Below, piece by piece: positions 40,192-44,084 of a stretch of 64,000 bases of DNA; positions within the stretch are counted from its first letter, which is position 1; every line of letters begins with the position of its first letter. This stretch comes from Chloroflexota bacterium. GTDB taxonomy: Bacteria > Chloroflexota > Anaerolineae > Anaerolineales > Anaerolineaceae. The DNA lies in the NCBI GenBank assembly GCA_029556265.1, contig JAKQFH010000012.1:1-64000 (forward strand). Direction: 5' to 3'. Position numbers and translations under genes: made by a program. Below the pieces are notes generated by a model that saw nothing but the letters and a program-made list of their open reading frames with translations, made no database searches and was not told the DNA's origin.

Positions 40192-40956
40192 TTACATATT
40201 CGCCGAACGGAACCAGCGGTAATTTTCAATACGCAGCACGTCTGCGTGTGGCATCGGGTAATAGCGCAGTTTGTCCCGATTTCCCACAAAGAAGCCGTTC
40301 TTAATCGTACGGTATGGAATTACCGGTGAATGGGTTCGATCGACCATTTTTGTGGAAACATATTTGGTCTTAACATCCGAAAGGCACTGGCGCAGATGAT
40401 CCGGGTTGCTGTAAGGCAGGTTGTTCAGCATGCCCATTTCGGGGTCGCTGGAAAGTTCGCCTAACTGGAGCTCCGCGAAAGTGATAGCCGGAACTGAGAT
40501 TAAAGAGGTCGGATTCTTAACAATCAAATCAAAAAAACTGACCGCGTCCAAGCGGCTTACCACCAGCGGTGTGACGGGAACAACTTCCTGATAGAGATGA
40601 AGCCCGCTTCCATTCTCAGGGAACTCATCCGAGGCCTTCAGCCCCAAAGTACGCCCGTCCTGCGTGGTCAGGTAAAGGTCCAACAAGGCATCCGGGTCTA
40701 TATGTTCCAAAACGCGGTAGACTGAGACGTAAATAGACGCTTTCGGGCGTCCGTCTTCGTGCGGGACACAGCGCTTAAGCGCTTCATCCATGTGAAAATA
40801 GGGATTTCGATAATTGGGGTCCACTTCAAAAAACATGGCTTGTCCCCGGGATTTTTTTGAGGAACCGACCGCGTAATAGGTACCAAATTCCTCAGGGCTC
40901 AACATTGACACAATTAATGCTTCGGGGAGTAAAGATAAATAAAAATGCGTTTCCAT
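40192..40956 (-). CDS. unknown protein encoded upstream of hppA
   Basis: 254 residues from the ATG at 40956, with GGAG at good spacing; the open frame extends 20 codons further without support. No signal peptide or membrane helix. It begins METHFYLSLLPEALIVSML and contains EEFGTYYAVGSSKKSRGQ, AMFFEVDPNYRNPYF and a C-terminus rich in aromatic residues (YYPMPHADVLRIENYRWFR). No family was recognised. The 37-base gap to hppA on the same strand suggests co-transcription, so a link to pyrophosphate or membrane energetics is conceivable but unproven. Confidence 0.75.
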   Translation of the reverse strand: METHFYLSLLPEALIVSMLSPEEFGTYYAVGSSKKSRGQAMFFEVDPNYRNPYFHMDEALKRCVPHEDGRPKASIYVSVYRVLEHIDPDALLDLYLTTQDGRTLGLKASDEFPENGSGLHLYQEVVPVTPLVVSRLDAVSFFDLIVKNPTSLISVPAITFAELQLGELSSDPEMGMLNNLPYSNPDHLRQCLSDVKTKYVSTKMVDRTHSPVIPYRTIKNGFFVGNRDKLRYYPMPHADVLRIENYRWFRSANM

Positions 40957-41181
40957 GCGTGCTCCAATCTTCAGAAGATAATTGCCTTGCACCAGGTGTC
41001 CAAATATCACCAGCATAATTGTATCTTAAAAGGCGGCTTTGGTACCAAAAAAACCAATTGACTGCACAAATCTTAACGGTTGCCGGGTGACATTTTTAAT
41101 TGAGGCAACGCTTCCCCTTTAGTTACTTTTATTTTGAGGAAATATGGATACTGTTTTCATCCCTTTATGAACCAACAAAAA

Positions 41182-41220: not shown

Positions 41221-41628
41221 TCAGTGGCTGAGCAGATAGTTGATTATGGCTTCTTTTTCCTGGGCAGTAAAGCTGATCCCGTGATGACCGCTCAGAAATT
41301 GGTCCCACTCCGCGTAAGTTTTATCAAACTGGAGCACCCAGTCTAAGGTGTGGTGCCCGCCAAGTTTCTCAAGCAGCAGCGCCTCAGCTTCGGCTTCGCT
41401 TATTGTCGCGGTTTCCGCGGCCGGGTAAGCCGCGCTGGCCGATTCCGCGGCTGCTCCCGCCGGATACGCGCCGGAAGCCTGGTTCGGCGTCGGATTTTCC
41501 TCGACGCCCCCGTCAACAGAAACAGCTGGCAAATTAATGGAAGTACCTTCATCCTTGGCAGCACAAGCACTCAAAAGAAGTCCAACCGCCAAAATAATGC
41601 TTACGAAAAGGAATATTTTGCTTTTCAT
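41221..41628 (-). CDS. small lipoprotein with His-rich helical C-terminal domain, unknown
   Basis: 135 residues. The signal ends in lipobox LLSACA. An Ala/Tyr/Pro/Gly/Glu-rich linker (about 30-75) leads to a ~60-residue helical end with two HH pairs and a terminal His (GGHHTLDWVLQFD, SGHHGISF, EKEAIINYLLSH). The last helix resembles the C-terminal helix of small c-type cytochromes, but there is no CxxCH haem site. A metal- or haem-related role is speculative. AAGGAT precedes the ATG, and it is followed by its own terminator, so it is monocistronic. Confidence 0.7.
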   Translation of the reverse strand: MKSKIFLFVSIILAVGLLLSACAAKDEGTSINLPAVSVDGGVEENPTPNQASGAYPAGAAAESASAAYPAAETATISEAEAEALLLEKLGGHHTLDWVLQFDKTYAEWDQFLSGHHGISFTAQEKEAIINYLLSH

Positions 41629-41722: not shown

Positions 41723-43165
41723 TCAGCCGGCGCAATCCGGTTTCGCGCTTACATCCGTAAAATAAGCCTCACCCAAAGATTCCGCGGTCTCCCCATCTGG
41801 CAAGCTCAGTTTTTCGCAGAACAGGGGGTGCGCGCGGCTCGCCTGTTCAGCCATCCGGAGCGCAATCCTTCGGATGGAAAAATGGGCGTTCTCGCTGGCG
41901 CGCAGCCGCGTGAAGTGAAATAGTTCACGCAAGTTCAAGCGGCAGAGCACGCGCCGGTTGTACCCATTTGGCACAACGTAAGAGGCCGCCTCCGGGTGGA
42001 ATTGCCACAGTTCTTCATACAACCGGGCTGCTTCGTTCATCGCCTGCCGGTATAAACCCTCCACGCCGGCCTGGCTCATCGCTTTCGGAATCGCGTACCC
42101 CAGGCGGGTGGTCAGCGCCTGCGGGGTTTGGGTCATCATGCGGTGGCGCTTAAACTCAAAGTAAGCGCCCTGGTCCATAACCAAATCAAAATCGTAATGG
42201 GCATACTCAAGCTCCCGCAGGGGGACGTCAAAATCGCTCAATTGCGCGAATAACGCCTCCGCAAGAGCGGATTTTTCCCCGGCTTCCAGGCTCCGAACAT
42301 GCGCCAGGCATTCGGAATAGCTTCGTTCGCCAAAGCGCAGCAGCGCCGCGGCCAACACCTGGTCTTCCGCGTCAGGTTCCGCGCCGAGAAGCTGGCACCA
42401 CCCCTCCTCAGGCTCTGCCGCAACCCGCGCGGCTTCCGTGCGAAAACAAGCGCGGATACCCGCCAGGCTCTCAATTGGATTGGCATACTTAACCAGCGTT
42501 GGCAGTTCCTGGGTTGCCACCGTCTTCACTTCCCGGCCTATCTGGCGGTCTTCTTCAAGCTCGGAGCTGAGCAGTTTTTTTATGGCGTATTCCAGCGCGC
42601 GCGCGTTTATCGTGACGCCCACGTTCGCCATCGACGCGGCGGGCAGGAAAAACCTGGCAACGTCCACCGCTTTCACTCGGGCGCGGTTTTGCCAGGCCTT
42701 CTCGCTTTCCTCCGGCAGCCTTTCGGTGACTTCTTCACACCACGCGCGCAAGGCTTCGGTCGCTTCGGCGTAGCTCTGAAAAAGCAGGCGCATTAATCCG
42801 CGATATTTCTCCGCAAAGCGCGAGGCCTCTATTTCTGGCGGTAAAACCCAGGCATCCGGGTTCCATTCCTGGTAACGCGTGGATTTTTCGGTGTACGATG
42901 CCAGGCGGTTGCCTTCAATGGTTTCAATGGCAAGCCGGGAGATGTTTTCGAGGGCCAGATGCAAGACGGCATGTTCGGCCACGCTGGAATGACCATAACC
43001 GACAATCCATTTCTCACTGAATTTTGAGGATTTTTCCGCGTCCAGCTCCGCGGCAATCCGGTCAAACGGTTCGGGGGAACGGGAGGTTTTCGCGAAGGTG
43101 ACCGCGATGGTTTCCGCGCTGTATTGGTTTGGGCTAAGCCGATAAATTCTCCGGGCAAGATTCAT
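41723..43165 (-). CDS. tandem ThyX-like (flavin-dependent thymidylate synthase) protein
   Basis: 480 residues made of two ThyX-like units. Unit 1 (about 1-225) has YGHSSVAEHAVLHLA and GNRLASYTEKSTRY (85-98), which keeps the S..E.S.RY part of the ThyX signature but has GNR where RHR is expected. Unit 2 (about 235-465) has RHRMMTQTPQALTTR (340-354), which keeps RHR but lacks the serines, followed by NGYNRRVLCRLNLRELFHF. ThyX makes dTMP from dUMP with FAD and methylene-folate, with active sites formed between subunits. Here a composite site may arise within one chain, or the enzyme may have changed function. AGGAGG precedes the ATG, which overlaps ribF by 32 bases. Confidence 0.8.
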   Translation of the reverse strand: MNLARRIYRLSPNQYSAETIAVTFAKTSRSPEPFDRIAAELDAEKSSKFSEKWIVGYGHSSVAEHAVLHLALENISRLAIETIEGNRLASYTEKSTRYQEWNPDAWVLPPEIEASRFAEKYRGLMRLLFQSYAEATEALRAWCEEVTERLPEESEKAWQNRARVKAVDVARFFLPAASMANVGVTINARALEYAIKKLLSSELEEDRQIGREVKTVATQELPTLVKYANPIESLAGIRACFRTEAARVAAEPEEGWCQLLGAEPDAEDQVLAAALLRFGERSYSECLAHVRSLEAGEKSALAEALFAQLSDFDVPLRELEYAHYDFDLVMDQGAYFEFKRHRMMTQTPQALTTRLGYAIPKAMSQAGVEGLYRQAMNEAARLYEELWQFHPEAASYVVPNGYNRRVLCRLNLRELFHFTRLRASENAHFSIRRIALRMAEQASRAHPLFCEKLSLPDGETAESLGEAYFTDVSAKPDCAG

Positions 43166-44084
43166 GGGTCAGTATCCTCCTGGCTTCACGTTTGTCCTGC
43201 TCAATCTGGTCAATCAGGTCTTGCACGCGTTCATATTTGATTTCCGGGCGCAGATATTCAATAAATTCAACTGTCAGGTTTTCATGATAGATATTATCAT
43301 CAAAATCCAGGAGCAGAGTTTCGATGTTAGCCTGCGTGGTCGTTTCAAAGGTGGGGCGGACCCCCACGCTGGTTACGCCCATCAGCTTTTCCCCGTTAAA
43401 ACTGGCGCGCGTGGCATACACGCCGTATTTTGGCAGAATTTTCTGCGGATTGACCACCTGGTTCGCGGTCGGGAAGCCCAGCTTGGACCCAAGATGTTTG
43501 CCTTCCACCACCTTGCTTCTGACAAAATAGGGGTGCCCAAGCAAATCCGCCGCGCCGCGCACATCGCCGGTCTCCAGGGCTTCGCGCACCCTGCCGGAAG
43601 AAACCGGCTTCCCGTGCAGGCAAAATGGAGGCACAATATCCAGTGTGACGGCGTGCCTGGCGCACTGCTTGCCGAGTTCACGCAAGGTGCCTGTGCGGTC
43701 TTTGCCCAACGCGAAGTTTTCGCTGACGGTCAGACCGCGCAGGTCCAGGTGTTTGAGCAGGAGCGAAAGAAACTGCGCCGCGTTAAGCTCAGCCAACTTC
43801 CGGTCAAAGGTTAAGGTAAACACATAATCCAACCCGCTTTCCGCCAGCAGGACCTGCTTTTCAGCCTCGCATGCCAGGTAAAACGGTCCTTGAATATTCT
43901 GCAGCACCACCCTGGGGTGCGGTTGGAATGTAATCATCGCGGACTTCGCGCCATCCCGGGCGGCGTTTTGCTTTAGTCGGGCCAGCAGCGCCTGATGCCC
44001 GCGGTGCAGTCCGTCAAAATTGCCAATGGTAATCCACAAAGGCTGTTCTTTTAGCTCCGGCAAGTTCTCAAAGAATTGGGTCAC
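43134..44084 (-). CDS. ribF: bifunctional riboflavin kinase / FAD synthetase
   Basis: 316 residues starting with GTG (GAGG 6 bases upstream). It phosphorylates riboflavin to FMN and adenylylates FMN to FAD in the cytosol. The N-terminal nucleotidyltransferase part shows TIGNFDGLHRGHQALL and TFQPHPRVVLQ, with VSSGRVREALETGDV. The C-terminal kinase part shows LGFPTANQV (PTAN), YGVYATRA and the late acidic ENLTVEFIEYLRPE. It sits downstream of truB, as in many bacteria, and upstream of the ThyX-like gene, which would use its FAD product if it is a true flavoenzyme. Confidence 0.95.
   Translation of the reverse strand: MTQFFENLPELKEQPLWITIGNFDGLHRGHQALLARLKQNAARDGAKSAMITFQPHPRVVLQNIQGPFYLACEAEKQVLLAESGLDYVFTLTFDRKLAELNAAQFLSLLLKHLDLRGLTVSENFALGKDRTGTLRELGKQCARHAVTLDIVPPFCLHGKPVSSGRVREALETGDVRGAADLLGHPYFVRSKVVEGKHLGSKLGFPTANQVVNPQKILPKYGVYATRASFNGEKLMGVTSVGVRPTFETTTQANIETLLLDFDDNIYHENLTVEFIEYLRPEIKYERVQDLIDQIEQDKREARRILTHESCPENLSA

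Follow-up and report, generated by a model that had tools for sequence, protein, structure and literature searches.

Thymidylate synthase ThyA makes dihydrofolate and needs dihydrofolate reductase (DHFR), while ThyX makes tetrahydrofolate, so that DHFR is not needed. ThyX, which many microbes cannot live without, is a drug target, and what is known of its unusual three-subunit active site comes mainly from mutants and crystal structures; subunit complementation of ThyX was reportedly described by Leduc et al. in 2004. In Mycobacterium tuberculosis (Mtb) ThyX each site is made from three subunits, with subunit A supplying the RHR motif (95-97) and Arg199, subunit B supplying Ser71 and Arg190, and subunit C supplying Arg87, Ser105, Arg107, the Tyr108 lid and a backbone contact from Gln103 (PMC6514825). 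In PBCV-1 ThyX, Arg182 and Ser88 come from different monomers (PMC3498832), and in the ThyX homologue PolB one monomer gives Arg82, His83, Arg86 and Arg193 and its neighbor Glu94', Ser96', Arg98' and Arg166' (PMC5003785); both of these maps agree with that of the Mtb enzyme on the A versus C roles. A domain duplication of ThyX in Chloroflexi was noted in 2009 as uncharacterised (Valas & Bourne 2009, PMC3224940).

The window examined here is a 64,000-nucleotide stretch of DNA from a Chloroflexota genome, and it encodes on its minus strand a 480-residue tandem ThyX that opens with an ATG; translation of the plus strand over the same interval meets stops. The gene, its two halves and its upstream neighbor are as follows.

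41723-43165, minus strand: tandem (two-domain) ThyX, 480 aa; one open reading frame, Pfam Thy1 matched twice, TIGR02170 above its cut-off
42461-43165, minus strand: half 1, aa 1-235, assigned roles B and C (dUMP-binding loop, Tyr lid, FAD-contact Ser)
41786-42409, minus strand: half 2, aa 253-460, assigned role A (RHR FAD clamp, uracil-activating Arg)
43134-44084, minus strand: ribF (riboflavin kinase / FAD synthetase), by Pfam and NCBIfam

When the chain was cut and scored in parts, half 1 (aa 1-231; 5.9e-28, 98.4 bits) and half 2 (aa 232-480; 9.2e-24, 84.7 bits) each passed the Pfam Thy1 (PF02511) cut-off of 24.8 bits, the complete chain reached 172.5 bits, and it also passed the NCBIfam thyX equivalog TIGR02170 (93.7 bits, cut-off 87.9). 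The original prediction of ThyX likeness in both halves, and not in just one, is thus borne out, as is its reading of the motifs: half 1 has GNR at the RHR position and retains S90, E93, S95, R97 and Y98, and half 2 has an intact RHR at 340-342 and has lost the serines, with MMTQTPQALTTR coming next. All parts of the RHR-x7/8-S motif are present in the chain, divided between the halves as Ser without RHR in half 1 and RHR without Ser in half 2, so that the protein is a member of the ThyX family by profile, fold and residues, and not by possession of a contiguous motif within one subunit. The fold was modeled with AlphaFold2 from an alignment of 20 tandems, viral tandem ThyX included (mean pLDDT 91.4, pTM 0.88), and this model supersedes an earlier one from nine close relatives, in which pLDDT was 63 and most of half 1 lay below 50. 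In the newer model both halves have the ThyX fold, as half 2 (253-460) superposes on Thermotoga ThyX (Z 17.1, rmsd 2.3 Å, 192 residues) and half 1 (11-238) on Mtb ThyX 3gwc (Z 14.6, rmsd 3.8 Å, 209 residues), the best structural match outside ThyX having a Z of 4.6.

The division of the catalytic residues was tallied over 105 tandem ThyX, comprising 81 from Chloroflexota (six lineages) and 24 from plasmids, phages and viral contigs, through which alone other phyla are represented; five Chloroflexota tandems (L086, L098, L108, L113, L115) were left out, having been over-trimmed in processing with half 1 not missing, and 25 canonical ThyX from Chloroflexota were included in the alignment. The residues concerned are listed below for this protein, with their counts in the tally.

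42983-42985, minus strand: Ser61 (Mtb Ser71), FAD contact, assigned role B; Ser or Thr in 105/105 of half 1 and 3/105 of half 2
42905-42913, minus strand: Gly85-Asn86-Arg87, decayed RHR of half 1; first Arg in 4/105 and His in 9/105 of half 1
42872-42889, minus strand: Glu93-Lys94-Ser95-Thr96-Arg97-Tyr98, retained dUMP-binding loop and Tyr lid, assigned role C; Ser, Arg and Tyr in 105/105 of half 1, and in 7/105, 1/105 and 0/105 of half 2
42653-42655, minus strand: Arg171 (Thermotoga Arg147, PolB Arg166), dUMP phosphate contact, assigned role C; 105/105 of half 1, 2/105 of half 2
42572-42574, minus strand: Leu198, the lost half-1 counterpart of the uracil-activating Arg (Mtb Arg199); Arg in 0/105 of half 1
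42140-42148, minus strand: Arg340-His341-Arg342, intact RHR of half 2, assigned role A; first Arg and His in 105/105, second Arg in 102/105 of half 2
41900-41902, minus strand: Arg422 (Mtb Arg199, Thermotoga Arg174), uracil-activating Arg, assigned role A; 105/105 of half 2

In Mtb numbers, every half 1 thus carries Ser105, Arg107, Tyr108, Ser/Thr71 and Arg172 (the Thermotoga Arg147 and PolB Arg166 position) and every half 2 carries Arg95, His96 and Arg199, while the reciprocal copies survive in 0 to 7 of the 105, or 9 for His96. A partition common to all 105 tandems is far beyond chance. Among the 20 diverse tandems aligned for the model, 16 residues are invariant and most of them form the catalytic set (S61, E93, S95, R97, Y98 and R171 in half 1; R340, H341, R342 and R422 in half 2), the others being S28, R29, Y132, P222, Y396 and L421. 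The restriction of the Thermotoga Arg147 column to half 1 was first seen in a scan of columns near-invariant in canonical ThyX, before PolB Arg166 was found to come from the monomer that supplies the Ser/Arg loop, and so provides a small independent test of the partition. In lineage IV, Arg190 is found in 13/13 of half 1 and 0/13 of half 2, as expected if half 1 takes role B. In many tandems both halves have Arg190, or both have the second Arg of RHR, which leaves the B role less sharply defined than A and C. The Ser61 counterpart in half 2 is Leu or Arg, and the Mtb Arg87 equivalent (role C) is gone from half 1 in lineages II-IV, a position also replaced in some single-domain ThyX. Between them the two halves cover every role of the three-subunit site except Gln103, a backbone contact, whose position is Glu in this protein. 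Assignment of role A to half 2 and of roles B and C to half 1 is strongly supported by these residue patterns and matches the published three-subunit maps. Half 1 of lineages II and III (L088 and L110, for example, which read GDDSVAEL) has Asp for the conserved His of the GHxS motif (His69), the same change as the H53D made and crystallized in Thermotoga ThyX (4kas, 4kar); like the loss of Arg87, this weighs against the model that follows.

These data allow a model that we regard as highly likely, in which the cell's flavin-dependent thymidylate synthase is built from two fused, specialised ThyX subunits and two chains form a pseudo-tetramer with two live sites. This model proposes that, with two copies of each half present, half 2 would clamp FAD through its RHR in two of the four sites and its Arg422 would activate the uracil, while one half 1 would bind dUMP through Ser95, Arg97 and Arg171 and close the site with Tyr98, and the other half 1 would give Ser61, and probably also Arg189, to the FAD. 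The methylene of CH2-THF would then pass to the flavin and on to dUMP, the reaction of ordinary ThyX, with dTMP and THF as products. The other two, reciprocal sites would lack nearly every key residue and would presumably be dead, and the half-2 copies should be mutual "D" neighbors, that is, each the subunit outside the other's site.

Whether such an enzyme would still supply thymidylate may be judged from the genomes. A profile search of the tandem's own genome (85% complete) found neither ThyA nor a second ThyX, a search the original prediction had called for, and the tandem is therefore the sole thymidylate synthase detected there. Among 41 relatives, own genome included, 33 have the tandem without ThyA and without DHFR (19 of the 33 being at least 90% complete), six have ThyA and DHFR without the tandem, two have neither tandem ThyX nor ThyA, and none of the 41 has tandem ThyX together with ThyA. 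This exclusion is significant over genomes (Fisher p 6e-6) and at one vote per family (0.0014), and the relatives thus show ThyX in place of ThyA, with DHFR lost as well; ThyX chemistry predicts just such an absence of DHFR from every genome with the tandem. In a wider set of 201 Chloroflexota genomes, 73 have tandem ThyX. ThyX is absent wherever ThyA matches strongly (E < 1e-40), and only three of the 73 (G118, G134, G208) show a ThyA-family match that is weak and partial. From this genome context the tandem ThyX very probably still makes dTMP. It is improbable that no dTMP is made and that the protein instead methylates another uridylate, as PolB does with UMP, or fills some other flavin-dependent role, even though the solved ThyX-fold matches include two proteins whose role is different or dispensable, namely PolB and a Corynebacterium ThyX said not to be needed for thymidylate, and thymidine kinase, present in the own genome and in 38 of the 41 relatives, makes salvage possible. 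However, PolB itself still forms dTMP (PMC5003785), and the suggestion that this enzyme had ceased to do so is disfavored by the lack of any other detectable thymidylate synthase in its own genome and 33 relatives and by its mutual exclusion with ThyA and DHFR.

Some genomes show other arrangements. G215, of the same family, is a single contig and 99% complete, has thymidine kinase and gives no ThyX or ThyA match at E 0.001; it is possibly a thymidine auxotroph or the bearer of an unrecognised thymidylate synthase. In G051, G063 and G100 (family f33, genus g42) ThyX was not found by the same searches, and partial ThyA-family matches (E 1e-17 to 1e-21) lie in open frames of about 500-600 aa. 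G166 carries two tandem ThyX genes, with four Thy1 matches in two ORFs of 570 and 536 aa.

The number of chains in a working enzyme can be predicted from the partition. With roles B and C both falling to half 1, one copy of half 2 and two of half 1 should be needed for a complete site, and hence two fused chains. The composite site drawn from complementary halves, as originally predicted, is supported by the published maps and by the invariant partition in the 105 proteins, but the version in which one chain holds a single site fits poorly with an enzyme whose site uses three subunits. That a single chain acts as a pseudo-dimer with one composite site, the half 1 of a second chain being unneeded, we judge quite improbable: the A and C residues alone, from half 2 and one half 1, do hold the flavin ring and dUMP, and the pTM of 0.88 suggests a defined placement of the halves within one chain, but the B-role Ser/Thr71, near-exclusive to half 1, implies that a second half 1 contributes. 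Completion of the fused protein by a separate canonical ThyX subunit is scarcely credible, since the tandem genomes have no added strong single-domain Thy1 match among the matches listed. The complementarity is most unlikely to be an alignment or assembly artefact or pseudogene decay, for although the genome is a draft (85% complete, 6% contamination), such a reading is refuted by conservation across the tandems, whose unbroken reading frames of about 450-600 aa share one set of invariant residues in many Chloroflexota families as well as on plasmids, phages and viral contigs.

For the origin of the two-chain, two-site arrangement, trees of the halves were computed after removal of the catalytic columns. 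The half 1 sequences of lineages I-V form one clade (99/99), and so do the half 2 sequences (100/99), which points to a single duplication. Lineage V is the first branch among half 1 sequences and still has RHR in half 1 (3/4), its half-1 Arg199 and its half-2 Ser, Arg and Tyr being already gone; it resembles a transitional state, with the reciprocal sites dead and the last RHR yet to decay. The halves of group VI (f64, f17) were placed outside the I-V clades, and an AU test did not reject a single clade with group VI for either half (p 0.34 and 0.39). In most lineages the loop that follows RHR in half 2 is replaced by a recurring one (T345-Q346...Q349...G356-Y357). It is a tentative and rather unlikely extension of the model that this loop makes the dead sites regulatory or partner-binding, and that group VI reached the same division of labor independently; regulatory dead sites would make tandem ThyX an obligately asymmetric thymidylate synthase. 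Beyond the Chloroflexota set, tandem ThyX was seen on large non-mobilizable plasmids of Paenibacillus and Bacillus (L134, L137, L138), where half 2 has RHN and not RHR, and in Microcystis phages and many IMG/VR contigs (L140, L142, and L143-L179, which include phage Tunturi_5, where the gene adjoins dCMP deaminase).

As the original prediction noted, thyX comes directly after ribF, which lies immediately upstream on the same strand with a 32-nt overlap, and the order truB-ribF-tandem thyX recurs in related loci L003-L030 wherever the flanks are covered; ribF was not seen beside the tandem among lineage II-IV loci with 1.5-kb flanks. Supply of FAD by the neighboring RibF is plausible. At one locus (L017 237-2810, G040) a single open frame of 858 aa runs through ribF and tandem ThyX without a break; it may be a FAD synthetase-ThyX-ThyX fusion occurring in nature, or else the product of a frameshift in a draft genome. 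Downstream of thyX, also on the minus strand, are ORFs at 40192-41016 (274 aa, no family match) and 41221-41628 (135 aa, with a start that looks like a lipoprotein signal), and both are kept beside thyX in several relatives.

If the model holds, tandem ThyX is the natural equivalent of complementing half-dead mutants. In a fused chain each subunit role is separately mutable, which would show which residues must come from which subunit, and the family offers a clean natural case of division of labor after domain duplication, with lineage V as an apparent intermediate. Annotated records name the tandem proteins simply FAD-dependent thymidylate synthase, and annotation by motif, like inhibitor modeling, may be led astray by the split motif.

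The closest described relatives may now be set beside this protein. The Chloroflexi ThyX of Valas & Bourne (2009, PMC3224940) shares its phylum and duplication, and the features of that kind are all found here (two ThyX domains per chain, sole detected thymidylate synthase, Chloroflexota); however, the ThyX passages of that paper are silent on active site, partition, assembly and lineages. In open-access full text (subscription papers and preprints lying outside this scope), tandem, fused or duplicated ThyX was met in the 2009 remark only, so that the duplication is already known and the active-site partition appears to be undescribed within that literature. Thermus thermophilus Thy1 (6j61) is likewise a ThyX extended at its C-terminus by further sequence, although in the structural comparison it matches half 2 alone, and its extra C-terminal domain is known from the title of the entry. 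PolB, a UMP/dUMP methylase, shares the ThyX fold, FAD-dependent uracil methylation and substrate residues drawn from two monomers, but is a single-domain homotetramer with a broader substrate. Canonical ThyX (Thermotoga TM0449 and Mtb ThyX) resembles the tandem in the fold of both halves, the catalytic residue set, the three-subunit site, the replacement of ThyA and DHFR and, probably, the FAD and CH2-THF chemistry. It differs in being a homotetramer of identical subunits with an intact RHR-x7-S and four equivalent sites, whereas the tandem has a broken motif in each half, and its sequence leads one to expect sites of two kinds, a live pair and a dead pair, in an assembly of two fused chains.
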